From Haloferula sp. BvORR071 (lineage in GTDB: Bacteria; Verrucomicrobiota; Verrucomicrobiia; Verrucomicrobiales; Akkermansiaceae): a stretch of 64,000 nt of DNA. Positions within the stretch are counted from its first letter, which is position 1, and every line of letters starts with the position of its first letter. The position numbers and the translations under genes were made by a program. The DNA lies in contig NZ_BATP01000019.1 of NCBI RefSeq assembly GCF_000739615.1, positions 62,001 through 126,000 on the forward strand, in the 5' to 3' direction. Positions 45,893 through 62,542 of this stretch are shown piece after piece. The notes beneath the pieces were generated by a model. The model was not told the origin of the DNA and did no database searches. It saw only the letters and a list, made by a program, of their open reading frames with translations.

Positions 45893-45935
45893 GCCCATTT
45901 CCCGCGGGCCGCCAGGGAATCGCCCGGAAACGGCG

Positions 45936-46572: not shown

Positions 46573-46652
46573 CAAAGCCAGACTATCACGGGGTCTCGGC
46601 GTTTCCGGAAACTGGACTGGACGCATGTTCGCGGTAGGTGCAAAATCCCGCC

Positions 46653-46844
46653 ATGTCAGAGAATGCAGGCCCCCCAACTCCGGAAAGCTCCGCCCCGATG
46701 CCGATGCCGTCCACACCGCGGCCTGTGCTCGTGCCTGAAGGTTTCGTGATGAGCTGCAATTCCGCGGGCGATGCTACGCCCCCACTTGTTTCGCTCAACG
46801 CCAGCTTGCCCACGAGCACAGAACCGCGAGGCAAGCAGGAATAA
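46653..46844 (+). CDS. possible small Pro/Ser-rich protein
   Basis: A 63-codon frame from ATG 46653 (MSENAGPPTPESSAPMPMPS) fills the gap between two minus-strand genes and overlaps the end of the membrane-protein gene. It has low complexity and no recognised family; it could be fortuitous. Confidence 0.22.
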   Translation: MSENAGPPTPESSAPMPMPSTPRPVLVPEGFVMSCNSAGDATPPLVSLNASLPTSTEPRGKQE

Positions 46845-47322: not shown

Positions 47323-47333
47323 GCGATCATTGT

Positions 47334-47834
47334 CTAGCGGCCGTAGTAGTCGGAGCGGCCATCGTCTGCCATCTCCTTTCGCTCCAGCCAATCGTCAAAC
47401 TGCCGGTCCATGCGCTCAGGGTCGGAGAGCCAGTGTCGTTCCCAGTCCCCCCCATAGATCTTGGTGAAATAAGTATCTCTGGCTGCTTCAATCCGGGCAT
47501 TTTCGCCCCGCTCTTCACGTCGATTGGCAACGCTGCGCTCCCTCTCCTTGTCGGCCTCGCCATGGCAGCGACCGAAGCAGAGCGCTTGCAGATCGGTGAG
47601 CAGCTCATCGCCGAACCGGTCATAGGTGAGATGGTGGATCTCCAGTCGCTTTGGTTTCTCCCGGCAGCGCTCGCAGAGGCCGCCACAGCGCTGGATGACT
47701 TGAAGCCGCAAAGCCTTCCACTCCTTTGAACGGATGTACTGCTGATAGCGCTTCTTGAATTCCGGCGTCCCGTAGATCCGGCTCCTCCGTTCCCTTTCCC
47801 TATCCTCCGCAAACAACGATTGTTGCTCCTCCAC
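47334..47834 (-). CDS. HNH endonuclease
   Basis: The 166-residue protein has a complete HNH/treble-clef core: C54-x2-C57, catalytic H67-H68 in LEIHHLTYDRFGDE, then C86-x3-C90-H91 in ALCFGRCHGEAD. HNH proteins of this size near phage structural genes may assist packaging or nick DNA, but no terminase is seen here. It lies upstream of a small membrane protein on the same strand. Confidence 0.88.
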   Translation of the reverse strand: MEEQQSLFAEDRERERRSRIYGTPEFKKRYQQYIRSKEWKALRLQVIQRCGGLCERCREKPKRLEIHHLTYDRFGDELLTDLQALCFGRCHGEADKERERSVANRREERGENARIEAARDTYFTKIYGGDWERHWLSDPERMDRQFDDWLERKEMADDGRSDYYGR

Positions 47835-47912
47835 AACGCGACCGTAACAAACTATCCCCGCACGTCGATTCCAGAGTGTCGGGTGGACTGGCGGCCGGAT
47901 GATTTTGAGGGG

Positions 47913-48551
47913 CTAGGTGTGGGAAGAGTCGCATTTTGTATCGACGATCTCCAAGAGGCGTCTGCCCAGAATGGTGAGTTCCATCCATCCCCACTTGTCT
48001 TGCGAAGCTAGGCCCGTAACCACCAGAATATGGTTCCGCAAACTGCCGTTGGGATTGCGATCCCCTAAGAGGAAATTGAACTGAGCTGGGGCTGAATCGT
48101 GGTTTTCGCCACGCCGCAAAACCATCGTCATTAGATATTCTGCGGTGCTGATTTCCCTGAGCTTCTCCACTTCGAACTTGGTCAAACGGGAGAGGGCTCG
48201 AACGAGTTCGGGATGGATACCTCCCTCGGTTAGCTCCTCGGCGAGAATGGCCGCCCACATCTCCCGGATTTCCTCATCTCGCTGTCTACCGCACTCATCC
48301 AAAGCGGGGATGACAACCGATGGATCAAACGAGCCCTGGAGGGCTTTGCCACTCGCTAGAAGCCGCTCCTGTGTTCGGCGCAAGGTGTCCGCACAGAGCA
48401 CCTTTTCCAGCTCGACCTTGCTAGTGAACTTCTCGGAGATGACCCGGCCTAGGCCCGATGTCGTGGAGGTAAGCGGAGCCAAAAAGTCCTTAACGATATC
48501 GGAGGCATTTTGTGCCAGGGTGATCCACGCTTCCTTGGGTATGTCGGTCAT
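47913..48551 (-). CDS. Abi-alpha / DUF4393-like protein
   Basis: The 212-residue protein resembles the DUF4393/Abi_alpha family: an N-terminal helical part (AQNASDIVKDFLAPLTSTTSGLGRVIS) and a characteristic DEEIREMWAAILAEEL then GIHPELVRALSRLTKFEVEKLREI. Family members are linked with abortive phage infection by annotation; the mechanism is unknown. ATG 48551 is used; the frame stays open upstream to 48698, so a longer N-terminus is possible. Confidence 0.68.
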   Translation of the reverse strand: MTDIPKEAWITLAQNASDIVKDFLAPLTSTTSGLGRVISEKFTSKVELEKVLCADTLRRTQERLLASGKALQGSFDPSVVIPALDECGRQRDEEIREMWAAILAEELTEGGIHPELVRALSRLTKFEVEKLREISTAEYLMTMVLRRGENHDSAPAQFNFLLGDRNPNGSLRNHILVVTGLASQDKWGWMELTILGRRLLEIVDTKCDSSHT

Positions 48552-48748
48552 GCTCACGACTGAGGCCACTGCCGCTGCCCCCACGGCGGCGCTTCCCGGA
48601 TCGAATGGCGGATTCACGTGCGGTATGCTAGAAGCGATTGCGACGCGTTCAATTACGATCTGGCCCACGAAATGTAAGATCCGGGGCGCTTGCTTCACAT
48701 GTTCGCCTTTCCCCTTGACTGGCGGCAGTCCCCGGATGGGATCGTTGC

Positions 48749-49243
48749 ATGATCGCTGAGATATCCGCCCTTCTGTCCGGCACCCGCGCGCTCTCCGATA
48801 TTGTGAAGGGACTGAAGAGTGCTGGAGACCAAGCTATGGTCCAGGATGTGGTGATCAACCTGCAAGAGGTTATCCTGGGACTTCAAGCAAAGGCCATTGA
48901 TGCAAATCTGAAGTTCGAGGAGCTGGAAGCAGCGCGGAAGTTGCTTCAACAGGACCTGGATACATTCAAGCAGTGGGACGCGATTGCAGCGGACTATGAG
49001 GCGACCGAGGTTCGAGACGGACTTGTCGTCTATCAGCCTAAGCAAGGATCCGGCCGCCCATCCGTGCCAGCCTGCCCGCATTGTTTCGGGGAACGCAGGC
49101 TTTCCTTGCTCCAACGCGAGGGCCAAACGAGCAAGATCGGCTGCCATGGCTGCAAGTTCGAATGCTATCCAAAGCCTCCGAGCGGAGCCAAGCGGGTACG
49201 CGTGAACCGAGGATCAAGTTGGGATAGGGGCTTGCTCGGATAG
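48749..49243 (+). CDS. coiled-coil plus zinc-ribbon accessory protein
   Basis: The 164-residue protein has an N-terminal coiled coil (about 1-75, ALSDIVKGLKSAGDQAMVQDVVINLQEVI region) and a C-terminal zinc ribbon of two Cys pairs (CPHC...CHGC at about 109-134). The same layout occurs in uncharacterised proteins scattered through prophages and defence islands. It is the only plus-strand gene in this part of the island, so it is likely a separately acquired cargo gene. Confidence 0.72.
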   Translation: MIAEISALLSGTRALSDIVKGLKSAGDQAMVQDVVINLQEVILGLQAKAIDANLKFEELEAARKLLQQDLDTFKQWDAIAADYEATEVRDGLVVYQPKQGSGRPSVPACPHCFGERRLSLLQREGQTSKIGCHGCKFECYPKPPSGAKRVRVNRGSSWDRGLLG

Positions 49244-49273
49244 CGTGATACAGGACGGCGATGCCCTCTCAGA

Positions 49274-49855
49274 TCATGAACTCAGGGACTTAACGGCGCG
49301 CTGCATGCCTCTCTTGAGGGCGAGAAGGAAAGCCACCCTGGTGGGTTCGGATTCAAGGTGCGTGCCGAGTGGACGGCGTGCTGGCACTTTCATTCGACGG
49401 TTGTGAGCGCGAATCTCGACAATCTTCAGCGGCTTGGCTGCTTCCTTCGCGGCGGCCTGGGCTGACTTCCTGAGGCGGCCTCTCGGCTTCTTCTCCTTCC
49501 GTTGGTGGGCTTTCACGCCGATTGATCCATTGAAGCCGAACTCGTGCGCGGCGAAGTAAACCACATTGCTGCCAAAGCTCACGGTAATCTCGCCCGTGCG
49601 AAGGTTCACTTGCGGCTTGGTGCAGCGGATCGACTGGCTCAGGCGGCCGCTTTTCACGCCAAGCCTGTTCTCCGAAACGGGGAAAGGGCCCTTCCCCCGG
49701 AAGCGCTGCTTGACGGCGGCCGACGCGGCCAAAAGCGAGGCCAAGCCAATCTCATACATGAGCGCTTCGAAAGCCTCAGAGGGTAGCGTTTGGAATTTGG
49801 CCACGAGCTTCTCGATCCGCTCGGCTTCCTTGCTGGTCTGTACTTCAATTTTCAT
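49274..49855 (-). CDS. HK97-gp10-like / virion morphogenesis minor tail protein
   Basis: The 193-residue protein has features of gp10/gpG-like tail-completion proteins: an N-terminal helix region (KLVAKFQTLPSEAFEALMYEIG), then a strand-rich segment with GRLSQSIRC and VVYFAAHEFGFNGSIGVKAHQR. The insert rich in Lys/Arg near 120-145 is common in the family. It is the last gene of the tail cluster, after the tape measure. Confidence 0.7.
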   Translation of the reverse strand: MKIEVQTSKEAERIEKLVAKFQTLPSEAFEALMYEIGLASLLAASAAVKQRFRGKGPFPVSENRLGVKSGRLSQSIRCTKPQVNLRTGEITVSFGSNVVYFAAHEFGFNGSIGVKAHQRKEKKPRGRLRKSAQAAAKEAAKPLKIVEIRAHNRRMKVPARRPLGTHLESEPTRVAFLLALKRGMQRAVKSLSS

Positions 49856-49885
49856 GGGTCAGTTGTCTTGCTGGAGGCTGGCGGG

Positions 49886-51457
49886 CTATTGACGGTTTAG
49901 CAGGCCGTCCACCTTCGCCTTCATCTCGCGCTGCTTGGCATCCATCCCCTCCATTGCCTTGATGAGCTGCATCACGACATCGGTATTGCCTGCCATGGTC
50001 TTGTTGACCGAAGGCAGCAGCGTCTTGAGGGCCTCGCTGTTTTTCTTGGCTTCCTCTGCGGTGATCACTCCATCGGCGGCGCTCTGGCGGATCGTCTCCG
50101 CGGCTGCGGCCTGCTGAGGAGTGGAGATCTCGAACATGCCAAGAGCACCGTTCAGCTTGCCTGACAGGTTGCGGTTCTCCGTGACTGCCTGATCAAACTC
50201 CGAGCTGGTAAGCTTGGATTCCATCTCTGCATTGATGGCCTTCACTTCGGACTTCTGGACTTCGCGGGCCTGATCAATGGCGGTGCCAGTGGTGGCCATC
50301 TCCTCCGTGATCCGATTCATTTCGGCAGGCACCGCTTTTAGCATGGCGTCCATTTCCGCCGCTTTGTCCAAGGTCTCTTTCAGCTTCAATTCCACCCCGG
50401 AGGTGTCCTTGCCCCGCCGCTCCCGGGAGGCTATCTCCTTCTGAAGATCGCTGGCTTGCTGATCCAAACCCGGCCGCGCCTTCTCCATGTCGGCCGCGTC
50501 TTGCTTCACGCGGGCCATCTCTTCACGGAGCGACTCGTATTTGTCGATTTGCTCTTGGACTTTCGCATTTGCATGGTCGGTGGCCTCCTCCGCTTCGCGG
50601 GCGATCTTCTTCCGCTCCAATGCCGCCATCTGTGCGGAGACATCGGCACCGGTGGTGGCGGCGAGGTAGCGCAGAGCTGCTGCTGCGGCGTCGTCCTGGC
50701 TTTGGGCCTCGCTGCGGTTCGCATCTGCGACTTGAGTGGCAACGGCAAGCCAGTTGAGCTGGGCTTGGGCCAGATTGTTTACAACCTGGGTGGCATGCCT
50801 CACTGACTCGGCATAGGCCTCCGTGGATTCATGCGCTTTCAGGTTTATCAGATCCTCAAGCGCTTCTTTCATCTCCTTGGCCTTCTCCTTGGCCTCGTCC
50901 GTCTCCTTTTTCATGGAGATCAGGTTGTAGACCATGAAGCCGATGGAGATGGCCGCGCCGGCCGCCGCTCCCTTCGCCCCGAAGCCGCTGAGGAGCTGCG
51001 GCAATTGCTGGCCAAGCGCGGTGCTCAGCTTCACGCCTGAGCCGAGCTGAACGGCGATGTCCTGGAGCTGATAGGAAAGGTTCTGTCCGGCACCTTTCGC
51101 CGCGTTCATGCCCCCTGCCGCTGCCATGTTCGCAGCATTGAACCGCTTTTGCATCGGCTCCGTTAGAGCCAGTTCCTCACGGATCTGCCGGACAGTCTGC
51201 TTCGCCTTGGCCTGCTGCACGTCCAGATCCGCTTGGCTCCGCACCGCCGCCTTGGTGGTGTTGGTGTTTTTGGCCAGCGCCGCGTCCAGGTCATACTGTG
51301 CGATCACATTGGCCCGGGTCTTCTCCGCGGTGGACAGGGAGTTGAGCCGATCCGTCTCGCTGCGGATGTCCCGCATGGCCTTGACGGTCTCAGCGGCTCC
51401 GGTGCCCTCTGATCTCGTTTTGAAGGTCAGCTCGTATGTGAGTTTATCGTCCGCCAT
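49886..51457 (-). CDS. phage tail tape-measure-like protein
   Basis: The 523-residue protein has the tape-measure signature (NLSYQLQDIAVQLGSGVKLSTALGQQLPQLLSGFGAKG, about 145-180), a hydrophobic helix right after it, and long alpha-helical coiled stretches over residues 190-420. It is short for a tape measure, predicting a short tail. Its start overlaps the stop of the upstream 96-residue gene as TAATG. Confidence 0.78.
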   Translation of the reverse strand: MADDKLTYELTFKTRSEGTGAAETVKAMRDIRSETDRLNSLSTAEKTRANVIAQYDLDAALAKNTNTTKAAVRSQADLDVQQAKAKQTVRQIREELALTEPMQKRFNAANMAAAGGMNAAKGAGQNLSYQLQDIAVQLGSGVKLSTALGQQLPQLLSGFGAKGAAAGAAISIGFMVYNLISMKKETDEAKEKAKEMKEALEDLINLKAHESTEAYAESVRHATQVVNNLAQAQLNWLAVATQVADANRSEAQSQDDAAAAALRYLAATTGADVSAQMAALERKKIAREAEEATDHANAKVQEQIDKYESLREEMARVKQDAADMEKARPGLDQQASDLQKEIASRERRGKDTSGVELKLKETLDKAAEMDAMLKAVPAEMNRITEEMATTGTAIDQAREVQKSEVKAINAEMESKLTSSEFDQAVTENRNLSGKLNGALGMFEISTPQQAAAAETIRQSAADGVITAEEAKKNSEALKTLLPSVNKTMAGNTDVVMQLIKAMEGMDAKQREMKAKVDGLLNRQ

Positions 51458-51747
51458 TAGTTTCGGGAGCTGTGCTGGCGCTGGTGTTCCGCCAAGCGGG
51501 TTTGGAGATCTTCGAGTTGAGCGATGGCATTTGCGCGGAGGTCCACGATATGGGCTGCCAGAGCTTCCATCGTGTTGATGTGCTCTTGCCCGCTGGAAAC
51601 GGCTCGCCGCAGGTTGGCGAGCTTGTCACCCAGCTCCGACATGCTCTTGTCGGCATTCGCGATGGCAGCTCGGGTTGTGGCGATAGCGGCGGCGATGCGC
51701 TCGCCGTCCGTGGGGCCGCTTCGATCTGGTGGGAATTGATAATTCAT
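51457..51747 (-). CDS. small coiled-coil tail-cluster protein
   Basis: The 96-residue protein is mostly helical with heptad character (ERIAAAIATTRAAIANADKSM, then ALAAHIVDLRANAIAQLEDL). It directly precedes the tape-measure gene and overlaps it by one base (TAATG), where tail-assembly chaperones normally sit. No frameshift signal was noticed. Confidence 0.6.
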   Translation of the reverse strand: MNYQFPPDRSGPTDGERIAAAIATTRAAIANADKSMSELGDKLANLRRAVSSGQEHINTMEALAAHIVDLRANAIAQLEDLQTRLAEHQRQHSSRN

Positions 51748-51790
51748 GAGGTGATTCTAGAAGTGCCGCGGTAAAGGCCGCGTCCGTGGG

Positions 51791-53551
51791 TTACGGTGTG
51801 TAGGTGATGTTGGTCTGGGCTGGTTGGCGGAACCTCTGCGCGAGACTGCGGGTGTCGAAGCGCGACGGCGGCCCCAACTCGATGCTGAGTTCCTTGCTCC
51901 TGAAGTCGTAGCTGACCGCCTTGGGAAGCGCCCCCATCGTCGCCAACGCAGCGCGCGCGCCGCTCAAGTTGAACTTGCAGTTCAGCATCTGCGCACCGTT
52001 GCAGAGTTCCTTTCCCTTTCGCGTCAGGGTGCCCCGGCATGGTGTCCAGGACTGCATCGACCGCAGGGCCTTCGCCATGTTCGCAGGCGGTGTCAGATAT
52101 TCGAATTCCGGTGGCTTGTAGAAGCTCGTCAGTGCGGCATAGGCGGTCGTGGTTACCACGGCTTCGATCTCGAAATCCAACGCCCACAACTGGTTTTGAT
52201 GCCGGATGTAGAAGCTCGGCTGCGGGAACGTCGTGATGCTCATCCAATACGGCGGCGGATCTCCGCTCCGCGTCATGGATTGCTTCAGCGACCAGGGGAA
52301 GGCGTTCGCCCATGCTGGCGGCGGCGCGGAGTCGATGTTATCGCTGACACCATAGGGACTCTTGGCTGAGGTCTGCGCGGCCAACACGTAGATCCGGCCG
52401 CTGAGCTTCACCCGCTGCATGCCGGGCAAGGAAAGCCAGTCTGGCGCATCCGGAGTGATCACCAGATTCTTGCCTATACGGCTGACAGCAGCGCCTGTGG
52501 CCGCGTCCACCATGGTGAGCGCTGGCATCGTGAGGGAGAAACTACTTCCCACGCTGGAAGGATTCTTGTTGTCGTCGAAATCCAAGGTCTCGCCATTGGC
52601 CAAGGTCACATCCGTCCCTCCCGGCTTCCCGGCGAATCCGGCGCGGCTCGTGACCACCTCCGGCAGCATGGAGAGTATCGTCGGCCGGAGCGTGCCAATC
52701 GTGACGTTGGCATTCACTGTCTGCACGTCGAAGCTATCCAAGTCATCCTTTGGCACGAAGGTATCGCGCTCCGGTCCACTGATCGCGATGACCTGCACCT
52801 TGCCCGGAGCCGCCACGCCATCCGCCTGCACCTGGGGAGTTGGCAGACCTGTCCCGCTGCGCGTGTAGTAGGTCAGTTCCACCCGGCTTGCCACCAGTTC
52901 CCCCATTGCCGACACCTAGTAAGGCTCGACCAATTGGTTCAATCCATAGGTCACCGGCACCGCATCCGCCCGGCGGGTCACATTGAAGGCAGGCAAGCCA
53001 TTCCCGCTGTAATCCCACCAGCCCACCGCATCCGGAACCAGCTTCAGCAGCTCCGCCAGGATGTCTGCGAAGCTTGCCTCGCTATAATTCTGCTTCGGCA
53101 CCGTCAGAGTGTCGGCAATCGTGCCAATCCGCATCGGCACGCCCTTTGCAATCGCCCTCGTGAGGAGCTGCGTAATGCTGGCCTTCACCGTCTGCTGCGG
53201 GAACTCCATCGTCGGCTTGTCGATACCGGCGGCGCTTTGTGTTAGCTGCGTTCTCCGCAGCCACCACCATGGCCCGAGCACCGTCACGCGAGTGCCTCGC
53301 AAAAGATCCTTCGGATCGCTCACGTGGCCGTGGAAGATCCGCACGCCATCGTGATACAGGGAGACCGCCTGCTCAAAGTCGGGAAGGATGGTCATGCTTC
53401 CCGCAAGGTCCTGCGTGCGCGCCGTCCAGGTCAGTGAATCATCGGCCATCGCCTCAAAGCGCAAGCTCAGGTCCCGGATTTTCAGGAGCGCGGGTGTCCG
53501 CTCGGCGGCATCCAGGGCTCTGCCTGCCTGCCCTATCAATTTCAGTGCCAT
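51791..53551 (-). pseudogene. baseplate-hub-like ORF split by an in-frame TAG codon
   Basis: The first part (52916-53551, 211 codons from ATG 53551) reads like a hub/late-control-D protein (ALLKIRDLSLRFEAMADDSLTWTA; YHDGVRIFHGHVSDPKDLL). It stops at TAG 52918-52916. The same frame continues without a gap to 51791 for about 375 codons (ELVASRVELTYYTRSGTG), as the natural continuation of that protein type. The second half could be translated separately from GTG 52915 or ATG 52906. Either the gene is broken by a point mutation, two polypeptides reassemble, or the amber codon is read through. Confidence 0.72.
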
Positions 53552-53630
53552 TGCTGTTGTGGTGTCGGGGTTCGAAGGGTGGAGATTGACGGCGCTACGA
53601 ATGCCCTCGCGGGGCGATGAGGTGTTAGGA

Positions 53631-54104
53631 TCATGCGTCGATTCCGTGGGGTTGAGCCGTTCCGGCCTGCATGTGGGGGGCTCGATCACCGCCGCACCCG
53701 TTGCAAAGCCGTTGCAACGCGCCGTCAGCGCGTCCCCCGCGCCCGGACGGGACAGAGTGCCGGAAAAGGGGTGCCTGCGCTTCTGCGGGCTCCTGACGCG
53801 TTTCGACGATGGCGAAGATCATGGCCCGCTTGCCCTGGTATTGTTCAGGCAAGGCATCGGCCTTGATCAGGCCGCGGAGGATCTTGGCCAGGGCGAGGCG
53901 CTGAACGTATTGAATGACCCCTTCCGAAACGCCGCAGTATTCGGCGATCAGGGAGAGGCTGACTTGTCCAGGCGGCGGTGCGTCGCCGGTGAGCTGGTCA
54001 TGCGCGAGGGCCAAGAGGCCCGCTTGGATCTTGAGGGCGGTGAGTTCGTTTAGCATGGCTGGAACTTCCTCAGCATCGCATGCCCCCTCGGCGGTTTTCA
54101 TCAT
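53631..54104 (-). CDS. small helix-turn-helix protein, paralogue 1
   Basis: The start at 54104 overlaps the upstream gene's stop (ATGATGA); ATG 54056 is an alternative. Of 157 residues, the segment PPPGQVSLSLIAEYCGVSEG and its continuation to about residue 95 align with the 89-residue protein at 56314 (shared PG-VSL, AL-K--RGL, LP). This looks like a sigma-region-4/HTH-type DNA-binding fold. The C-terminal 35 residues are low complexity and overlap a TTGCA dyad. It may control the tail genes downstream. Confidence 0.6.
   Translation of the reverse strand: MMKTAEGACDAEEVPAMLNELTALKIQAGLLALAHDQLTGDAPPPGQVSLSLIAEYCGVSEGVIQYVQRLALAKILRGLIKADALPEQYQGKRAMIFAIVETRQEPAEAQAPLFRHSVPSGRGGRADGALQRLCNGCGGDRAPHMQAGTAQPHGIDA
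53701..53717. promoter_or_regulatory. TTGCA-N7-TGCAA dyad, internal copy
   Basis: Perfect dyad with the same spacing as those near the island ends, 150 bp before the start of the tail-hub-like gene. It could be an operator of the tail operon. Confidence 0.5.
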
Positions 54105-54349
54105 TGCCCAAGGGTGCCGTTCCAGTCGCCGGTGGCGTGATAGGCCGGAGTGAAAGGGCCGGTGGCGTGGGTGATGTCCTGGTCATCGTAGGGAACGAAT
54201 GCCAGGACGCGGGATCTCCGGCGCTCGCGGCGGGCCATGGTGCGCTTGGCCTTCTTGCCAATGCCTGGGCGGCCTAGGTAAACGTAGAGATGCCGCCGGG
54301 GACCAATCCAGTCCTGTTCAAGCGGGGTGACTGCGGGGAAGTGAGCCAT
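54101..54349 (-). CDS. small basic protein of unknown function
   Basis: An 82-residue frame from ATG 54349 (GTG 54364 is also possible) has a central Arg/Lys-rich block (GKKAKRTMARRERRRSRVLAF) and an aromatic C-terminus. It ends in ATGA overlap with the HTH gene, which argues for real translation. No family is recognised. Confidence 0.5.
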   Translation of the reverse strand: MAHFPAVTPLEQDWIGPRRHLYVYLGRPGIGKKAKRTMARRERRRSRVLAFVPYDDQDITHATGPFTPAYHATGDWNGTLGQ

Positions 54350-54459
54350 TCCCCATGATGGCACGGGGACTCGGAGGGATTCGGCGGCCTCCTAGTCGCC
54401 GCCGGAAGGCCGGAAAGAACACACGATTTGTTCTTTAATTGCCGCTCCTGGTCGCCGCC

Positions 54460-54786
54460 TCAGCGCTTCTTGGCCAACTCTGCCAGCTTGCGGCGGAGGT
54501 CTGCTAGGTCCTGCTCGGCGGCTTTAGCGCGTTGCTCCATCTCCCCAAGCCGCTTCATCAAAGCGGCTTCTGATCCACCCTCGGGCTGTCGGCCGGTCAG
54601 CAGCCACTCCATGCTGACTCCGGCGGTGGTGGCCAAGCTCAAGAGCTGTTCGCTCTTCGGCATCTGAGTTCCTGCGAGCCACTTGCTGATTAGTGAAGTC
54701 CCTACCCCCGCCTTCTCAGCGAAGCGCGACTGGTTCATTCCAGTGCGTTCGATCGCTGAATTCAGGCGGCTGGTAAAATCCTCCAT
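54460..54786 (-). CDS. phage-type repressor, HTH_XRE, without protease domain
   Basis: The 108-residue protein starts at ATG 54786 (MEDFTSRLNSAIERTGMNQSRFAEKAG) with an XRE helix-turn-helix (about 16-50, GVGTSLISKWLAGTQMPKSEQLL). The C-terminal part is a Glu/Ala/Lys coiled coil in place of the LexA-like S24 peptidase, so induction by RecA-driven self-cleavage is not expected. It is divergent from a Cro-like gene, with a 26-bp palindrome between them. Confidence 0.88.
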   Translation of the reverse strand: MEDFTSRLNSAIERTGMNQSRFAEKAGVGTSLISKWLAGTQMPKSEQLLSLATTAGVSMEWLLTGRQPEGGSEAALMKRLGEMEQRAKAAEQDLADLRRKLAELAKKR

Positions 54787-54835
54787 TTGGGAAATGCATT
54801 TCTTGCCATCCCAAATGGAACATGTTCCATTTGGG
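54783..54835. promoter_or_regulatory. repressor/Cro operator region with 26-bp palindrome
   Basis: Positions 54810-54835 form a perfect 26-bp palindrome (half-site CCCAAATGGAACA). A third copy of the CCATTTGGG arm lies at 54783-54791, overlapping the repressor start codon, in inverted orientation to 54810-54818. Three half-sites of this kind suit cooperative repressor/Cro binding. Confidence 0.85.
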
Positions 54836-54892
54836 CGATGTTCGCGGGCACACTTGCCAAACGAACGCGTGAGAAACCTAACCAAATTGACC

Positions 54893-55132
54893 ATGCCATT
54901 TACACCAAAAAAACCGCGGGTCTCCCGCGCCATCGCCGCCGCCCGGAGGCATTTCTTTGCCCAAGGGTGGTCCTACCGCTCCGCCGCCCCGCTGCTGGGC
55001 GTGGGCTATCAGCACGTTTCTGAGGTCCTCAACGGACGGCGGGAGAGCAAGCGGCTGCTGGCCGCGATCTTGGCCCTGCCTGCCCGCGAAAAGGGAGAAA
55101 CCGTGGAAACCCCAGCCGCCAAGAAGCCATGA
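54893..55132 (+). CDS. Cro-like small helix-turn-helix protein
   Basis: ATG 54893 (MPFTPKKPRVSRAIAAARR) gives a 79-residue protein with a single HTH (GWSYRSAAPLLGVGYQHVSEVLNGRRESKRLL). It is divergent from the repressor gene and first in the rightward set, where Cro/Ner proteins occur. The longer upstream frame runs antisense to the repressor and is rejected. Its stop overlaps the next start (ATGA at 55129). Confidence 0.75.
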   Translation: MPFTPKKPRVSRAIAAARRHFFAQGWSYRSAAPLLGVGYQHVSEVLNGRRESKRLLAAILALPAREKGETVETPAAKKP

Positions 55133-55392
55133 GAAATCGAGCCATGCTTACTCCACTGCCGACGCCGACTCCAGTCGATCTGGAGACGGAGCTTGAACAA
55201 GCCATAGCGCAATCGGTCGGGCTGCTGGCCCTGCTGACAGATCGCGCGACCACGGACACCAGCAGCGGCCCGGCCAAGACGCCGTTTTCCGAGACGGAAG
55301 TATTCGGAATCGAGCTGCTGAAGGATGCGACCGCAGAGCGGTTGCAAGAGGTCTTCAAGTCCGTGCGGCCACGGCTGGCCACTCAACTGTAA
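55129..55392 (+). CDS. small early-region protein of unknown function
   Basis: The 87-residue frame starts at ATG 55129, overlapping the Cro-like gene stop; ATG 55144 is also possible. It is acidic and helical (VDLETELEQAIAQSVGLLALL) with no recognised family. Position in a compact early operon supports coding. Confidence 0.55.
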   Translation: MRNRAMLTPLPTPTPVDLETELEQAIAQSVGLLALLTDRATTDTSSGPAKTPFSETEVFGIELLKDATAERLQEVFKSVRPRLATQL

Positions 55393-55411
55393 ATCCCCAA
55401 CCCAACTATCC

Positions 55412-56083
55412 ATGAAAAGGAATTCTTGGATTCAATTGACGATCGGCTCCGATCTCTTCCAAGCATGCGAAGAGGTGGCGGAGGGTCTGAAGATGACCCC
55501 CGCAGCACTGATCCAGCAAGCATGCAGGATCGGGCTGAAGGTCCGCAAGCACCAGCGGGAGGCAGAGCGGCTAGACGAGAGCGTGCCACTCCACTGGCGG
55601 CAGATCCTGCTCAATGAGGCGGGCGAAGCCTTCCTGATCCGGCGGGTCTACGCGCGCACGGTATGGGCGCAGAAGTGGGACGTGAACGACGGCCCGGCCC
55701 AGCGCTTCACCTTCACCCATGCGGAGGCGAAGGCCATGCGGCGAGTCGCTCCGGTGACGCGCATGTATCACGGCGAGATCGTGGTATGGGGCGACAAGGC
55801 GGGGCGGGTGAGCGCTCTGCCGCACTCCACCGCGAGCGCCCAGGTGATCGGCCTGACAGGCGACTGGTGGGAAGACGGTGAGGTCTACGAGGAATGCTTC
55901 CCCTTCACGGTGGAGGATTGCTGGTGCCGCTGCATCCGCCTGCCGCTGCCTGCGGAGCGCGCGGCTTTCGAACGCGCCGAGATGGTTCAAGAGGGGGAGC
56001 GATTTCCCAGCTTGGAAGAGCGGCAGAAGGTGCAGAAAGGCCCGGGAATCCGGAAAATGAACAGCGCCCCGGCTTTCTGCTAA
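55412..56083 (+). CDS. early-region protein of unknown function
   Basis: The 223-residue protein (ATG 55412, MKRNSWIQLTIGSDLFQACEEVAEG) has an N-terminal part like a ribbon-helix-helix domain (KMTPAALIQQACRIGLKVRKHQREAERL) and a beta-rich remainder with several tryptophans (VVWGDKAGRVSALPHSTASAQ; GDWWEDGEVYEECFPF). It was not matched to a family. The next gene starts 230 bp later after a repeat-bearing gap. Confidence 0.6.
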   Translation: MKRNSWIQLTIGSDLFQACEEVAEGLKMTPAALIQQACRIGLKVRKHQREAERLDESVPLHWRQILLNEAGEAFLIRRVYARTVWAQKWDVNDGPAQRFTFTHAEAKAMRRVAPVTRMYHGEIVVWGDKAGRVSALPHSTASAQVIGLTGDWWEDGEVYEECFPFTVEDCWCRCIRLPLPAERAAFERAEMVQEGERFPSLEERQKVQKGPGIRKMNSAPAFC

Positions 56084-56276
56084 GGTTGACCTTATGCCGT
56101 CCCGGAATGCTCACCAATCCACAGCGCGCACCGCGAAAACCCCGCTACGGCTGCAAAATGAACAGCGCCGAGTGCGCGTGGTAGGATGGGAAATATGCCG
56201 CTCCTGAATGCCAACAGATCCTGACCAAGGCCGCCGATGCACCGCACCTGCTATGCTGAAACAAAGCCGTCCCGGA
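56053..56276. repeat. direct repeats in the early-region gap
   Basis: AAAATGAACAGCGCC occurs at 56055-56069 and again near 56156-56170, each followed by an ATGCCG-containing segment and a GAATGC motif. GCCGTCCCGGAA occurs at 56098 and 56265. AAGGT-tg-ACCTT forms a small dyad near 56083. The gap between two early genes may hold a second promoter or a replication-control region. Confidence 0.45.
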
Positions 56277-56313
56277 AGGTCTTGAACGACTAAGGATCCG
56301 AATTTGCCCCGCC

Positions 56314-56583
56314 ATGATCACCGATCTCACCGCCGCCAAGCTGGATGCCGCCCTGCTACAACTGGAGCTGGAGCAGCGGTGCGGGGAGGGACCACAGCCG
56401 GGCGAGGTGAGCTTGGCCGAATTGGCGCGCCGCGCCGAGATCGGAGAGGCCACCGTCCACGAGGTATTCAATACCGCCCTGTCCAAGGTTGCGCGCGGTC
56501 TGCGCGAGAGAGGCCTGCCCCCGAGGCTGGCCCGCGTGCTGGTCGAACTGATCGACGATCCGCAGCAGCCTGAACTTTTCTAA
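56314..56583 (+). CDS. small helix-turn-helix protein, paralogue 2
   Basis: The 89-residue protein carries the same fold as the protein at 53631-54104: PQPGEVSLAELARRAEIGEA then ALSKVARGLRERGLPPRLARVL. Two homologous regulators, one per arm of the island, suggest control of early and late modules. Similarity to sigma-70 region 4 is only suggestive. Confidence 0.65.
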   Translation: MITDLTAAKLDAALLQLELEQRCGEGPQPGEVSLAELARRAEIGEATVHEVFNTALSKVARGLRERGLPPRLARVLVELIDDPQQPELF

Positions 56584-56600
56584 CAGAAGCATCCATCATT

Positions 56601-57428
56601 ATGCCGCGACCAAAGAAGACCGCCCTGAAAGCAGGAGAGCCGTTCCTGGAACTCACAGGGGAATCCAAGCCTCCGGACTGGAGCCGTGCGCGTGAGCTGA
56701 GGGAGGGGATCAAGCATGCTCTCCGCGTGGCTATCGGGGCCCAAGTCATGCTAGGGCATGAGCTGCTCACCTTGAAGCTGGAGCTTGGGTTTCTCGGCTC
56801 GGGTCGCAGGCCCCAGCATCAGCTTGACGAGAACACCCGGCGCGCCCACGGCAAGACATGGGAGCAATGGTGCGATGCGGAGCTTGGGATCTCCGACATG
56901 ACCGCCAACAACATGATCAAGTGCTATGAAGCCGCCAAGCTGCGGCTGAAGAAGCAGGGCGGCCAAAAGGCGATGCTGGCACTGATGGACATGAAGCCTG
57001 CGGGTATGACCGAAGCGCAGCGCGAGAAGCTGGCCAAGATGGTTGACCGGCTGGTGGAAGGGGAGACCCAAGCGCAGCTTCTCTATGAACTGAAGCTGGC
57101 GAAAGCACAGCACAAGATAGCGGGCGGGGATACGTCCGCGCACCGGAAGGACAATTCCAAGCTCACCGGCGAGCAAATGGCGTTAAATTTATTCGGCGTC
57201 TTGGATGGCCTGACCTACGACTTTACCAAGCGCGCTGCCAGCTTCCGCACTGACCAGACTTACCAGATCTCGCTCCATTGCCTTCCCCTCCACGGCTCAG
57301 ATCCGACACAGACCGGCCTTCTCGAAATGCGCGACCGGCTTCGCGAGCTGATCACAGGCGAGCCTGCTGCGATGCTCAAGGATGTGGAGAGGGTGATTGC
57401 AAAGCGATTTCCGGAATACCGCGACTGA
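56601..57428 (+). CDS. DUF3102-like phage protein (one domain copy)
   Basis: The 275-residue protein has one copy of a roughly 70-residue motif at 45-120: GHELLTLKLELGFLGSGRR then GKTWEQWCDAELGISDMTAN and NMIKCYEAAKLRL. This resembles DUF3102-type proteins (E--K--LGHGEWG-WL---G-S-RTA-N). The C-terminal half is unassigned. The protein at 57972 has two copies of the same motif. Role unknown, possibly replication or transposition. Confidence 0.62.
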   Translation: MPRPKKTALKAGEPFLELTGESKPPDWSRARELREGIKHALRVAIGAQVMLGHELLTLKLELGFLGSGRRPQHQLDENTRRAHGKTWEQWCDAELGISDMTANNMIKCYEAAKLRLKKQGGQKAMLALMDMKPAGMTEAQREKLAKMVDRLVEGETQAQLLYELKLAKAQHKIAGGDTSAHRKDNSKLTGEQMALNLFGVLDGLTYDFTKRAASFRTDQTYQISLHCLPLHGSDPTQTGLLEMRDRLRELITGEPAAMLKDVERVIAKRFPEYRD

Positions 57429-57432
57429 ACCC

Positions 57433-57975
57433 ATGAGCGAGGACCCAGCCCTATTGAAGTCAATCGACAATCCGGAGGCCTTCGCCGAGCTGTCTAGCAA
57501 GGTGCGCTTTTCAGTGCTGTTGCGCCTTTCCTTCATTCTCGAAATCGAAGGCGCTGGCAAAGGGAAGAAGGGCGCGACGGTCGCGAAAGCCGCCAAAGCC
57601 ATGCACACCTCCGGGAGCGCCGTGAACCGGTATCTTGCCCGCTATCGGGCGACTGGGTGGCGAGGTCTGATCGACGGTCGCAAGCGTGAGGACAGCGGCT
57701 TGCCACCGGCCTTCCGGCGGCATGTTGAATCGGTCTTCTTAGCCGATCACTCCACGAAGCCGGCCAGCCTCCATAAGGCGCTGTGTAAGCGCTGGCAGAA
57801 GTGGCGGGAGACCGGTGCCAAGAAGTGGCGGATTCCCGGCTACGACGTTCCCCCAAGCGATGGCGGCAGCGGGCACCCAAAGGGCTGGAGTGTAGACAAT
57901 CTCGCGAGGCTAATGCCGACGTTGGTCGAGCTTCGCAGGCTTAAAGAGAAAACAGCTAAGGAGCAGACTTTATGA
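57433..57975 (+). CDS. Mu-transposase N-terminal-like HTH protein, no catalytic domain
   Basis: The 180-residue protein (ATG 57433, just after the preceding stop) has a homeodomain-like HTH (KAAKAMHTSGSAVNRYLARYRATGWRGLIDGR), a helical linker (HVESVFLADHSTKPASLHKAL) and GHPKGWSVDNLARLMPT. These correspond to the DNA-binding N-terminal part of MuA-like transposases. The DDE integrase domain that should follow is missing; the next gene is unrelated. Either a truncated transposase or a free-standing end-binding protein. Confidence 0.55.
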   Translation: MSEDPALLKSIDNPEAFAELSSKVRFSVLLRLSFILEIEGAGKGKKGATVAKAAKAMHTSGSAVNRYLARYRATGWRGLIDGRKREDSGLPPAFRRHVESVFLADHSTKPASLHKALCKRWQKWRETGAKKWRIPGYDVPPSDGGSGHPKGWSVDNLARLMPTLVELRRLKEKTAKEQTL

Positions 57976-58970
57976 GCAGTTTCCTTGAAGGGATAGGCCT
58001 GGACCGCCGGGCGGCTATCCGCCCGATGTTGGCAGAGACCATTCTGCTAGGCTCTGAGCTTAGCAGAGTGAAGGCAGAATTGGGCTTTGTCGGGAAGGGT
58101 TCTTGGCAGCGGCGCGGCGGCGCTCAGACTCGGCGATTTCCTGACACGTCAGCACGGACGTGGGGCGAGTGGTGCCGTGCCAAGATTGGGATCTGCGATG
58201 ACTCCGGTAATCGATGCATCAAGGCCTTTGAGTCGTCCAAGGCCCGGCTTGCCGCTGATCGTCGCGCCAGCCAGTTGCTGAAGCTGCGGCCATCGGAAAT
58301 GGATAACGCTTCGCGCTCGGAACTGCTGGCGATACTTGGCAGCAAGCTGGAAGGCGTCACCCTGCGAGCGCTACTTGCTGGAGATGCCCGCAAGTCCTCG
58401 GGAGCGATCAAGCCCAAGGCTGCGGCGAAGCCTCGCGCGAAGGTGCAGCAGCCAGCAGACCGGCTCGGGGCCATACGCTCTTTGTTCAAGCAAGCCCTGC
58501 GGCCAGATCTGCCAGAGAGGATCCTTTGCGGTGCGGAGCTTGGCCATGCTAAGAGGGAGCTTGGCCATGCAGGCAGCGGGCGGAGGCTCGCCGCCAGTGA
58601 GCGGGCGGGCACTTGGGGGCAATGGTGCCGGACGGTGCTCGGGATCTCGGAAGACACGGCTGACAATCTCATTGCCTGCCACGAGGCCTGCAAAGCCCGT
58701 CTGGCGGATGATGGCGAAGCAATCGCGCTGCTGAGCGTGCGTCCTTCCGAAGCCACAGAAGAGGGCAGAGGGCGCTTGCTGGAGATCCTGCGGGACAAGC
58801 TCTCCGGAGTAAGCCAAGCAAGGCTCTTGAACGGCGTGCGGGGCAAGGGGCGCGAGACGGAGCGTCAGGTAGAAGGTTCAGGTGATAGCGCCGCCGCTTT
58901 CCAGCGTGCGGAGAGGGAGATTGGCCGGGTGCTTTCCGATCTGCGCAGCGAGCTGGGAGCTGCGGACTAG
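57972..58970 (+). CDS. DUF3102-like phage protein with two domain copies
   Basis: The 332-residue protein starts 4 bp inside the previous gene's end (ATGA). It holds two tandem motif copies: GSELSRVKAELGFVGKG...TWGEWCRAKIGICDDSGN (about 27-100) and GAELGHAKRELGHAGSG...TWGQWCRTVLGISEDTAD (about 187-245). They are joined by a Lys/Ala-rich linker. The second copy is closest to DUF3102. It shares the motif with the protein at 56601. Confidence 0.62.
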   Translation: MSSFLEGIGLDRRAAIRPMLAETILLGSELSRVKAELGFVGKGSWQRRGGAQTRRFPDTSARTWGEWCRAKIGICDDSGNRCIKAFESSKARLAADRRASQLLKLRPSEMDNASRSELLAILGSKLEGVTLRALLAGDARKSSGAIKPKAAAKPRAKVQQPADRLGAIRSLFKQALRPDLPERILCGAELGHAKRELGHAGSGRRLAASERAGTWGQWCRTVLGISEDTADNLIACHEACKARLADDGEAIALLSVRPSEATEEGRGRLLEILRDKLSGVSQARLLNGVRGKGRETERQVEGSGDSAAAFQRAEREIGRVLSDLRSELGAAD

Positions 58971-59022
58971 CACGCGCTTTCCCATCGACCGCTTCCCGCA
59001 GTCCTGCTAGAAGGCACGCGCC

Positions 59023-59274
59023 ATGAAAGATACCCGCGCGCTTCCCCGCGATGCCGCTCCCGCCAAGGGAGATGACGAGCCGATCATTGTCCTCGTGCTG
59101 TTTGTTCTCGCTGGCCTCAGCGTGGTAGGCGGCGTGGTGCAAGGGCTGCAAGCGGCAGGCGCGCAGGGCATGTTCATCGGGTTGGCAGCGGGCGCGCTTT
59201 CCGGAAGCGGCGCGTGGGCCTTCGCGGTCCTTCTGCGGACGCTGCACCGGATTGAGAGGAACACCCGGCGATGA
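59023..59274 (+). CDS. small two-helix membrane protein (holin-like)
   Basis: The 83-residue protein has two membrane segments (about 20-41 and 49-71), a charged N-terminus and a basic C-terminus (LHRIERNTRR), as in many small holins. No lysin is nearby. Its stop overlaps the next start (ATGA at 59271). Confidence 0.55.
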   Translation: MKDTRALPRDAAPAKGDDEPIIVLVLFVLAGLSVVGGVVQGLQAAGAQGMFIGLAAGALSGSGAWAFAVLLRTLHRIERNTRR

Positions 59275-59510
59275 CCGAGCCAGCCACGGGAGCCCCTGCC
59301 TTCGTCCCCACCGCGCCGGGTTGGTATTGGTGGAGACAGGACCCTCTTGATGAATGGCGCGCTCTCCAGGTGATCTTCGATTATACCAAGCCGGACTCTG
59401 GGGCTCTCTTCGTGGCGAAAGCGGATGAGACCATCTATCAGTGCAGCGATGATCCGGAGTTTCCCTGGTATGGGGAATGGTGGGCGGAGGCGATCCAGGC
59501 ACCCTCTTGA
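59271..59510 (+). CDS. small Trp-rich phage protein
   Basis: The 79-residue protein starts with an overlap on the previous gene and contains PGWYWWRQDPLDEWRALQV, resembling small phage proteins with a GWYWWR segment. Function unknown. The CBASS pair begins 30 bp downstream. Confidence 0.6.
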   Translation: MTEPATGAPAFVPTAPGWYWWRQDPLDEWRALQVIFDYTKPDSGALFVAKADETIYQCSDDPEFPWYGEWWAEAIQAPS

Positions 59511-59540
59511 CGAGCGGGGGAGTCTACCTAGGATTGCAGC

Positions 59541-60416
59541 ATGCCCGACTGGGAAAACACGTTCAGCACTTGGACCAAGCGCGCCAGCGACACCGAAGAG
59601 GAGCAGTGCGTGAATGCCGAGACTGCCATCCGCAAAGCAATCAAAGCTTCCTCTGAGTTAACGAATCTTGACATCTCGGTCTTCGCGCAGGGCTCGTGGG
59701 CGGCGAACACCAATGTCCGGCGGGATAGCGACGTTGACGTCTGCATCTGTTTTGAAGAGACGGTGGGCCTCGGCCTGCCCCCAGGGAGGACCATGGAGGA
59801 ATATGGCTACCGTGGCGCTGCGCCCATAAGCTCACGCGAATTCCGTGCGAGGGTTGGGCGCGCTCTGGTTTCCTACTTTGGGCAAGACGACGTCACGCCC
59901 GGCTCCAAAGCATACACCATTCGGGACAATACCTACCGCGTCCATGCCGACGCGGTGCCAACCATCCTCTACCGGAATTACAACTTTTCACCCACCATTG
60001 AGGGGGTTGCCCTCGACCCCGATGGCGGGAAGCGGATCGTCAACTATCCGAAGCAGGCTCTTGCCAACGGAATCGCGAAAAACAACGCGACGAACCGCTA
60101 CTATAAGCGTGCAGTGAGGATCATGAAGAGGACGCGCAACTATCTCCGCGAGCGGGGCGACGAATCGGTAAAGTTCGCGCCCTCCTTCCAAATCGAGAGT
60201 CTCGTCTACAACGTAGACAATTCGGTTTTCATGCTGCCGTCGTGGACTGAGACGATCCGCCAATTGATCATCGCCGCCCATTCCATCGCGGTCGGCCCGT
60301 CATCCCCTGTCGAAGTGAACCATATCAAGCCGCTGTTTGGAGACCACAGCCAATGGACACGAGAGCATGCGCAGGCATTCCTTGTGGCAGCTTGGAATAA
60401 ACTCGGTTTTGCATGA
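59541..60416 (+). CDS. CBASS CD-NTase (cGAS/DncV-like nucleotidyltransferase)
   Basis: The 291-residue protein has the nucleotidyltransferase core: G51-S52 in FAQGSWAANTNVRRDSDVDVCI with metal-binding D64 and D66, and a third acid D137 in RVHADAVPT. All catalytic residues are present. The rest is helical and fits the CD-NTase C-terminal lobe (NRYYKRAVRIMKRTRNYLRERG). On phage infection these enzymes make cyclic oligonucleotides that switch on a partner effector. AGGA precedes the start. The next gene overlaps by ATGA and encodes the effector. Clade and product are not assigned. Confidence 0.88.
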   Translation: MPDWENTFSTWTKRASDTEEEQCVNAETAIRKAIKASSELTNLDISVFAQGSWAANTNVRRDSDVDVCICFEETVGLGLPPGRTMEEYGYRGAAPISSREFRARVGRALVSYFGQDDVTPGSKAYTIRDNTYRVHADAVPTILYRNYNFSPTIEGVALDPDGGKRIVNYPKQALANGIAKNNATNRYYKRAVRIMKRTRNYLRERGDESVKFAPSFQIESLVYNVDNSVFMLPSWTETIRQLIIAAHSIAVGPSSPVEVNHIKPLFGDHSQWTREHAQAFLVAAWNKLGFA

Positions 60417-61075
60417 ACAGCCTGAACCATCGCGGAGCAATCTCGTTTGCCTTGGGCATCTTCATCGGGCTTGCCTTTCTCTTCGAGGCCTTGGGGCTTT
60501 CGAACGTGAATGGAGCCGGATCGCTGCTTGCCCTCTTCTCCAAGGCGGTCTCGGTTGAGCTGCTGCTCTGGATCGCCTTCTACAAGTGGATTTGGAAGTG
60601 GCCCCTGTGGCGGGGCTGCCTAGTGACGGTGCCGGTCATCCACGGCACTTGGCGTGGGAATCTCTACTCAAACTGGGTCAATCCGGAAACCGGCCAGCGG
60701 CCGGATGCCATCCCCACGCAGCTTTCCATTTACCAGACTCTCCTGACGGTGAGCTGCACGCAGCGCACCGGGGAAAGCATCAGCACGAGCTTCGCCGAAG
60801 AGGTTCGGGTTGATCCGAAGGACCCTTCATTGATCGAGCTGTATTACTGCTACCGGAACGTCCCAGACGAACGGGTAAGAGAGCGGAGCAACGTCCACGA
60901 GGGTGCCTGCATGCTACGCTTCAGCCAATCCACCGGGAAGAAGCTGGAAGGCAGCTATTGGACTAACCGGCGGCCGATCCCGACCACTGGCGACATCCGG
61001 CTTGAGTTTTCCGACGCGAAGCCTCTTGATGCGCTGCACCCCGAAATGCCTAGCCACCCCGGCCCAGGCGCGTAG
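60413..61075 (+). CDS. Cap15-like CBASS effector (2TM plus beta-barrel)
   Basis: The 220-residue protein has two N-terminal membrane helices (about 9-29 and 44-61) followed by a beta-rich domain opening with PVIHGTWRGNLYSNW, the start typical of Cap15/S-2TM-beta effectors. Cap15 proteins bind a cyclic nucleotide through the barrel and disrupt the inner membrane, killing the infected cell. Start ATGA overlap with the CD-NTase stop indicates coupled synthesis. No Cap2/Cap3 or HORMA/TRIP13 genes are present, so this is a minimal type I CBASS. Confidence 0.82.
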   Translation: MNSLNHRGAISFALGIFIGLAFLFEALGLSNVNGAGSLLALFSKAVSVELLLWIAFYKWIWKWPLWRGCLVTVPVIHGTWRGNLYSNWVNPETGQRPDAIPTQLSIYQTLLTVSCTQRTGESISTSFAEEVRVDPKDPSLIELYYCYRNVPDERVRERSNVHEGACMLRFSQSTGKKLEGSYWTNRRPIPTTGDIRLEFSDAKPLDALHPEMPSHPGPGA

Positions 61076-61104
61076 GGAGCGACTGTGGGACCTGCTGCGA
61101 TGCC

Positions 61105-61154
61105 TTGCAGCGGTCTTGCAAGGGTCTAAAAGCGCCGATGCAGCCCCGTTGCAC
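61105..61154. promoter_or_regulatory. TTGCA-N7-TGCAA dyads, right end
   Basis: Perfect dyad at 61105-61121 and a partial one (ATGCA-N7-TGCAC) at 61138-61154, 51 and 18 bp inside the right terminal repeat, mirroring the left end. Confidence 0.55.
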
Positions 61155-61171
61155 GGCTGAGGGAAAAGGGT

Positions 61172-61196
61172 CATTTTTACCAGATCCTTGCGGAAA
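61172..61196 (-). repeat. right copy of 25-bp inverted terminal repeat
   Basis: Exact reverse complement of 45868-45892. A further TTTACCAG (inverted CTGGTAAA) abuts it at 61197-61204, matching the extra unit at the left end. Confidence 0.85.
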
Positions 61197-61261
61197 TTTA
61201 CCAGATCGTCTGCGGCTTTACGTACACGGAAGTGGGCCGGGATATCGTGAGGGGATTGGCT

Positions 61262-62542
61262 TCAGGGTTTGCGGCTGCTGACCGTGCCGGCGAAGACCGG
61301 GATCGCGATCTTAAGGAGGAGGGTGTAGACCATGAGCCCGCCAGCCCAGATGCCGGCGGTGATCTTCCACTCGGTGGCGCTGGGCAGGTACTCGACCCAC
61401 TCGTGGAGCGTCGAAGGGATGAAGCCGGGGATGATCAGGCCCATGCCCTTCTCGATCCAGATGGCGATGAAGGCGAGGACGCAGGCGATATCGAGAGTCC
61501 AGAGGTGTTCGTGGATGCGCGGCCGGAGCAAGAGCACGGCGGCGATGATCATGAAGACGGCGGAGGTCCAGATCCATGGCATCAGCGCGTGGTGACCGTG
61601 ATGCCCGAAGTAGAGGTACTTGGCCGAGACGCCATGCGCGCCGCCGGTGTAGAAGGAAGTGAAGATCTCTGACACCAGCATGAGCAGATTGATCAGGATC
61701 GTGATGCGCATGATGCCGGCGAGCGTGCGGATCGAGCCCTCGCCGATCTTGGTCTTGGTCTTCGTGATGCGGCGGATGATTTGCAGGACGACGATGATGA
61801 AGGCGGGGCCGGCGACGAAGGCGGAGGTGAGGAAACGCGGAGCAAGCAACGCAGTATTCCAGAAGGGACGACCGCCGAGCCCGGAGTAAAGGAAGGCGGT
61901 GACCGTGTGGATCGAGATCGCCCAAGCGATGCTGAGGAAGACGAAGGGAATGTACCATTTGCGGTCGGGAGCCTCACCGAGGAAGCGCTTGTAGAGGAGG
62001 TAACCGCAGATGTGCAGGTTCAGCAGCAGGTAGCCATTGAGCACGATGACATCCCAAGTGAGCATCGAGACCGGCCAGTGGAACTTCCCGACGAAGGGCA
62101 TGATGTGCCAGAAGCGGTCCGGCCGGCCGAGGTCCACGACCACGAAGAGCAGGCACATTACGATCGAGGCGATGGCCAGCAGCTCGCCGATGATGACCGT
62201 GTCGTGCATGTCCCGGTCATGATAGATGTAGGCCGGGATCACCATCATCACCCCGCCGGCGGCGAGACCCACGATGAAGGTGAAGTTCGCGATGTAGAGA
62301 CCCCAGGAAACATGGTCGGTCATGGCGGTCACCGCCATGCCGTCGCGCACCTGCACCGCCCAGGCGTGGGTGCCGACCAAGGCGATGCAGGTCAACACGA
62401 TCATCCACAGGTAGAAAATCCAGCTGCCCTCCGTGGCGAGCCGGAAGGCCAGCCGGAGAAACTTCATGTAGCTGGTAGCGTGGAAGCGCGCATCGTGCGG
62501 CTCCGGCTCCGCCGGGTTGGCCGTGGTGTCGTTCACGTTCAT
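61262..62542 (-). CDS. NrfD/PsrC-type quinone-reactive membrane subunit
   Basis: The 426-residue protein has about nine or ten membrane helices and NrfD-family hallmarks (SWGLYIANFTFIVGLAAGGVMMVIPAYIYH; DLGRPDRFWHIMPF). It follows the ferredoxin gene by 7 bp. Family members exchange electrons between membrane quinol and the FeS/haem partners on the periplasmic side. Standalone FeS and haem subunits here resemble Dsr/Hmc/Nrf-type complexes, more than a fused alternative complex III. Confidence 0.92.
   Translation of the reverse strand: MNVNDTTANPAEPEPHDARFHATSYMKFLRLAFRLATEGSWIFYLWMIVLTCIALVGTHAWAVQVRDGMAVTAMTDHVSWGLYIANFTFIVGLAAGGVMMVIPAYIYHDRDMHDTVIIGELLAIASIVMCLLFVVVDLGRPDRFWHIMPFVGKFHWPVSMLTWDVIVLNGYLLLNLHICGYLLYKRFLGEAPDRKWYIPFVFLSIAWAISIHTVTAFLYSGLGGRPFWNTALLAPRFLTSAFVAGPAFIIVVLQIIRRITKTKTKIGEGSIRTLAGIMRITILINLLMLVSEIFTSFYTGGAHGVSAKYLYFGHHGHHALMPWIWTSAVFMIIAAVLLLRPRIHEHLWTLDIACVLAFIAIWIEKGMGLIIPGFIPSTLHEWVEYLPSATEWKITAGIWAGGLMVYTLLLKIAIPVFAGTVSSRKP

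Follow-up and report, generated by a model that had tools for sequence, protein, structure and literature searches.

Near the right-hand side of the window (the whole 64,000-nt stretch of Haloferula sp. BvORR071 DNA analysed here) lie two genes on the plus strand. The first (59541–60416, 291 aa) encodes CdnE, an E-clade CD-NTase (cyclic dinucleotide synthase), and the second (60413–61075, 220 aa) encodes Cap15, a protein with two transmembrane helices and a cyclic-dinucleotide-binding barrel. Both ORFs fall exactly at these positions, and the ATGA coupling of cyclase and effector described in an earlier note on this DNA is confirmed at 60413–60416. No ubiquitin-like or HORMA/TRIP13 ancillary family was found among the neighbouring ORFs, and the gene downstream of Cap15 (61262–62542), named from its sequence, is an NrfD-like flank gene. 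The pair is a two-gene type I CdnE-Cap15 CBASS of an ordinary, known kind.

The cyclase matched the PADLOC model PDLC00801 (Cyclase) at 1.9e-102; from Pfam only NTP_transf_2 and SMODS were hit, both below cutoff, as were the NCBIfam cyclase models. Its closest sequences in the PDB were LpCdnE (5.3e-59), EfCdnE (3.3e-53) and ClCdnE (1.8e-50), with further matches to the Elizabethkingia (1.3e-38) and Rhodothermus (1.2e-25) CdnE enzymes. The predicted structure (pLDDT 87) has the cyclase fold, with a TM-score of 0.95 to LpCdnE. All residues of the nucleotidyltransferase signature recognised at the outset (GS, D-x-D and a third Asp) are present as G51-S52, D64-x-D66 and D137, and the three catalytic Asp are conserved in all 20 aligned sequences, which were chosen (query included) out of 120 listed and 342 found. 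One homologous cyclase, P0020, carries the name Verrucomicrobia.

According to the accessible part of PMC10442399, acceptor choice in CdnE enzymes is set by lid 1, where Asn selects U, and donor pyrimidine choice by a C-terminal (R/Q)xW motif; with the R or W of this motif changed to Ala, EfCdnE accepts purines and makes cUA or cUG. Pairwise alignments assign Asn168, Ala173 and S270-Q-W272 of the window CdnE to lids 1, 2 and 3, and Glu258, the partner of the lid-3 Arg in ClCdnE, is retained. The lid 1 Asn of cyclic di-pyrimidine CdnEs occurs in 20 of 20 rows of the alignment (N168 in the window cyclase). Their (R/Q)xW at lid 3 is replaced by SxW in the window cyclase; across the alignment this lid reads (S/C)xW in seven of the 20 sequences (P0001, P0009–P0013 and P0015) and QxW in 13, and lid 2 is Ala in seven. 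Because (S/C)xW occupies lid 3 in its branch, the window enzyme is no textbook cUU synthase, and since SxW stands where cUU synthases have (R/Q)xW, a purine in the product is possible. On these residues we would lean slightly towards a U-purine dinucleotide. The set Asn/Ala/SxW makes for a sharp product prediction, by which both the lid-3 rule as published and the choice of ligand by Cap15 could be tested.

The effector was matched by the PADLOC 2TM effector model at 1.7e-66 and by Pfam PF18153 (Cap15_CD_rec) at 9.7e-18. Two N-terminal helices precede a barrel that opens with GTWRGNL (residues 78–84), and the structural model (pLDDT 75, with the helical transmembrane part at low confidence) contains these helices and eight strands. 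A fold search matched the barrel to Cap15 7n34 with a TM-score of 0.82 (on target); a search of the PDB by sequence gave one meaningless match (E 0.93). The first reading of the pair, as a CBASS with a Cap15-like 2TM/beta-barrel effector, is backed by profile, sequence and fold.

The operon lies within an element of 15,482 bp (45741–61222). On the minus strand this encodes an excisionase-like HTH protein (46276–46716; 47% to a prophage gene of G085, a genome of the same genus; HTH_17 at 5.5e-4, below cutoff), an Abi_alpha-domain protein (47913–48698; PF14337 at 1.7e-9, above cutoff; PADLOC PDC-S47 at 2e-7), a tail completion (HK97-gp10-like) protein (49274–49855; phrog_26 at 3e-6; 43% to G085), a tape-measure-like protein (49886–51457; phrog_1538 at 4e-5; N-terminal 74 aa matching G085), a minor tail gene recognised by comparison with G085 (51791–53689) and split by an in-frame TAG at 52916–52918, and a CI-type repressor-like protein (54460–54933; Phage_CI_repr 2.2e-8, HTH_19 1.8e-9, PHROGs repressor 4.7e-17). 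On the plus strand, six early ORFs (56314–59510, gaps of at most 52 bp) run into the CBASS, and 57397–57975 (+) encodes a 192-aa N-terminal DNA-binding part of a Mu-like transposase (HTH_29 1.2e-7). Some duplication is apparent here: 57972–58970 has two stretches like a G085 protein also matched by 56601–57428, and 53631–54104 and 56314–56583 both match one G085 protein. The Abi_alpha-domain gene, which lies towards the end away from the CBASS, is possibly a second defence gene. The G+C content is 60.5% for the element, 58.6% for the CBASS, and 65.7 and 62.4% for the flanks. Left of the element, a 946-aa ORF (40585–43425, +) with many repeats of about 150 nt and WxWG-type motifs looks RCC1-like by eye, and three copies of a 14-nt-spaced repeat stand at 43548–43595.

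PHROGs scans of 20 island ORFs found no head gene apart from a terminase-small-subunit family match on an HNH gene (47334–47834), which at 4.1e-6 was weaker than that gene's HNH matches, and the portal, head, protease and terminase frames of the full G085 prophage had no match in the island. The description of tail genes without head genes holds as far as these scans and this comparison reach: of the head and tail genes needed for a particle, the former gave no match beyond chance-level or HNH-driven ones, and among the latter the minor tail gene is broken.

Contig C118 of G085 contains an apparently complete Mu-like prophage. The PHROGs scan (eight ORFs) recognised portal (4.8e-60), major head (1.2e-34), terminase large subunit (5.9e-32 to 9.3e-31), tail completion (1.1e-7) and endolysin (3.1e-28) genes and a MuB-like DNA transposition protein (phrog_296, 3.1e-39). 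Its 726-aa transposase matches the transposase family phrog_310 weakly and in its N-terminal part only (4.5e-7), with no integrase core found by Pfam, and the 192-aa window ORF aligns to its residues 12–182. Neither the remainder of this protein nor the AAA/TniB (MuB-like) ATPase that follows it left any trace in the island, so that of the full transposase and MuB-like ATPase of a Mu-like phage the window has an N-terminal part only. Seven of the 45 predicted ORFs of the G085 prophage have island homologues (minor tail, tape measure N-terminus, gp10-like, excisionase-like, two early proteins and transposase N-terminus), and a six-frame repeat with 268 G085 segments returned the same regions, no head gene and one weak match (1.8e-4) on the end region itself. 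A second genome, G133, carries two closely related Mu-like prophages in one chromosome (L105, L034, L035; L036, L037, L106), 95% identical to each other over 9 kb.

Common to the window element and these three prophages are a homologous L-type end, early genes, the transposase N-terminus and tail genes; the element differs in its size (15.5 kb against 34–37 kb) and in having no head genes, no MuB-like ATPase and no more than the N-terminal part of the transposase. Compared with G085 and G133, its interior also lies inverted between the ends: next to the L-type end stand the CBASS and early genes, a place that the tail genes take in those prophages. The island tail genes stand in reverse order relative to G085, which simple deletion does not explain. 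Recombination between two 36-nt repeats (see below) could have inverted the interior and would still leave the reversed tail-gene order unexplained.

Comparing the two G133 prophages with each other gave their termini (34,297 and 34,360 bp), flanked in one case by an exact 5-bp duplication (TGGGG) and in the other by a 4/5 match (CGGCG/CGGCT). Phage Mu, in whose transposition MuA and MuB have their roles, generates 5-bp target duplications. The L ends of G133A, G133B and G085 align with the right end of the window element (reverse strand) without gaps over 54 columns, 22 of them invariant, in a common pattern of a GTAA terminus followed by two TGGTAAA/TTAGAAA-type sites at 21-nt spacing. This L-type end of the element (61161–61222, minus strand), with two TGGTAAA sites 21 nt apart, agrees with the G085 L end at 37 of 50 positions and with the G133 L ends at 26 and 27 of 50, each reached in 0 of 500 shuffles; in a gapped local test the G085 and G133B L ends gave 0 of 1000 shuffles and the G133A L end was weak (76 of 1000). 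The left end is R-type (45741–45903, plus strand, with inner TGGTAAA-type sites at 45839–45855 and 45868–45903). It is similar to the R ends of both G133 prophages (local score 38, 0 of 1000 shuffles) but not to that of G085, whose score in this DNA test was reached by 93 of 1000 shuffles. By sequence comparison, then, the ends of the element are homologous to transposition ends of Mu-like phages and carry repeated sites of the binding type.

Directly outside both homology-placed termini stands TACAC (45736–45740 and 61223–61227), the probable target-site duplication. This placement was made after looking, and a 5-mer common to two random places (4×4 offsets) turned up in 2.0% of trials, a figure that rises with several candidate sites. 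An alternative flanking match, CACGGAA, lies at 45729/61225, and around the G085 prophage no 5-bp duplication was found at the same spacing. The earlier note had placed the CBASS inside a right terminal repeat. A repeat does exist, 36 nt at 94% between 45868–45903 and 61161–61196, but it is inverted and represents an inner site; it was dropped as the termini once comparison with G133 and G085 had shifted the ends outwards, to about 45741 and 61222. Two other kinds of boundary were rejected: the 20 repeat families listed (of 31) include no long direct repeat on the two sides of the island, and the sole tRNA of the window (tRNA-Phe, 35342–35415), considered as an attachment site, lies some 10 kb away. 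No empty insertion site was found in the genus; left-flank homology (G080, G087, G083) stops inside a LysR-type gene, and right-flank homology lies in other genomes (G088, G096, G095). An end model (R1), built from four ends with that of the window element among them and run on 254 family genomes, returned these four training ends, one end in G106 (6.8e-7) beside tail homologues, one in G120 (3.4e-8) and two marginal matches (0.008 and 0.009). The G120 end is a solitary L-type end (L125, G120:C4:162357-162408), with no prophage homologue around it and no R-end partner found.

We consider it very likely that a two-gene type I CBASS sits here as cargo at one end of a defective Mu-like transposable prophage. 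The L- and R-type ends, which are of transposon type, and the 5-bp flanking repeat suggest that the unit came in by transposition, and the CBASS would, though not certainly, have been aboard at that insertion. Lacking head genes, a MuB-like ATPase and all but the N-terminal part of the transposase, and with one tail gene broken, the element should neither move nor make particles alone, and a helper would be needed; the carrier is a shortened Mu-like prophage that is now probably immobile. Of the proposal that the defence cargo moves with the element, a past transposition is supported, if not proven, by the ends and the 5-bp repeat, and present movement of the element unaided is not expected with these genes missing. 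Now that both of its transposition ends and a likely target duplication have been located, co-mobility can be put to the test.

The Cap15 stop codon lies 147 nt inside the right terminus, so the CBASS is indeed the last operon of the phage-like element. It closes a run of eight co-directional genes (56314–61075, gaps of at most 52 bp), with 30 bp before CdnE, and a promoter scan of the region before CdnE found one sigma-70-like site (59507–59534) against 1.4 expected. The CBASS may share a transcript with the early genes, which could place it under the CI-like repressor.

A credible, if rather doubtful, alternative is that the CBASS entered on its own at the margin of a prophage in decay, whose genes would today play no part in spreading or controlling it. 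Decay is visible in the disrupted minor tail gene and in the transposase fragment. The transposase N-terminus is present in 20 of 260 family genomes (own genome included); the 19 others have 21 matches, 19 in frames of 534–977 aa and two in frames of 281 and 236 aa, and as a stand-alone fragment it was found in the window copy only (one of 229 candidates from a protein database, in a word-based search of limited sensitivity). Cap15 of the window type occurs in six of 254 family genomes (own included) and in none of 17 other genomes of the genus; among genome contigs it was found at three loci, none near the window's genome. In G233, G247 and G117 it stands beside CdnE among restriction and other defence genes (names read from ORF starts), and these stretches hold no Mu-like gene homologue, which again favours separate acquisition. 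G186 gave a weak Cap15 match with no CdnE in the stretch compared, and G120 a Cap15 match with an internal TAG. Such an origin fits poorly, however, with the place of the CBASS, just inside the L-type end and directly after a co-directional early gene, and with the early ORFs, which are open and tightly overlapping.

That the element is a helper-dependent mini-Mu, mobilised in trans by related phages while its transposase fragment binds the ends and regulates or hinders their transposition, seems to us unlikely. Both ends are retained, the repressor-like gene and the end-binding domain are open and translationally coupled, and the genus includes a genome (G085) whose related full prophage has a similar L end. 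Yet the element is single-copy in its genome, the stand-alone fragment was not found in any second genome, and no helper transposase was found in the assembly (96% complete), where a search with the full G085 transposase recovered only the window fragment. Besides the fragment, phrog_310 gave one weak match in this genome (2.8e-6, a 292-aa frame on contig C63), which that search did not recover. More improbable still is the extended form of this idea, a mini-Mu defence element that keeps its ends, repressor and end-binding transposase part, hinders the transposition of related incoming phages, uses a mixed U-purine signal to kill infected cells through its CBASS, and is spread by the transposase of those phages.

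Returning to the CBASS as cargo of a shortened prophage, the activity, product and trigger that we infer for it would be as follows. On infection, CdnE would produce a cyclic dinucleotide whose U comes from the acceptor site; this would bind the Cap15 barrel, on which Cap15 would oligomerise and disrupt the inner membrane, the cell dying ahead of phage spread. The Cap15 mechanism is taken from the accessible parts of PMC10442399 and PMC12657230. Inhibitory signalling of the Panoptes type, in which the nucleotide restrains a 2TM barrel effector and its loss kills the cell, is highly improbable: Panoptes effectors have the Cap15 architecture too (PMC12657230, accessible part), but the Panoptes synthase is a mini-Cas10 (mCpol) and that of the window an E-clade CD-NTase, and Cap15 beside such CdnEs is reported as ligand-activated in the accessible part of PMC10442399.

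Neither CdnE nor Cap15 matched any of 50,697 phage records, and CdnE relatives were present in 51 of 72,556 plasmid records, all below 60% identity. Among viral contigs, the minor tail query had one match (L030), the transposase fragment had word matches in 10 stretches of which none encodes a relative, and the pattern TCTGGTAAAAATGNCCC occurred once in each of 14 stretches, about chance by a rough estimate. Two IMG/VR viral contigs do carry CdnE-Cap15, and the presence of this pair on phage-like DNA is therefore not new: in L083 (8974–10462) it sits between ORFs reading as terminase and portal, and in L082 it adjoins an ORF reading as a serine recombinase. Their CdnE is 37–41% identical to that of the window and, unlike the window element, they have no Mu-like homologues in the stretches compared. 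In the part of the literature covered on CBASS with Mu-like or transposable phages or satellites, no title concerned a CBASS-carrying Mu-like element.

Set beside known systems, the window pair has in common with the LpCdnE, ClCdnE and EfCdnE operons (type I CBASS, from the accessible part of PMC10442399) the two-gene CdnE-Cap15 layout, the folds and the lid 1 Asn; it differs in having S-Q-W and not (R/Q)xW at lid 3, in the Ala of lid 2 and in sitting in a Mu-like prophage derivative. We regard it as one more defence system on phage-derived DNA, the CBASS being ordinary and its carrier mildly unusual. P2-like phages and P4-like satellites have defence hotspots, as stated in the accessible part of PMC9122126, and like the window element they bear defence genes as cargo on phage-derived DNA; they belong to another phage group, whereas the carrier described here is a crippled transposable phage.
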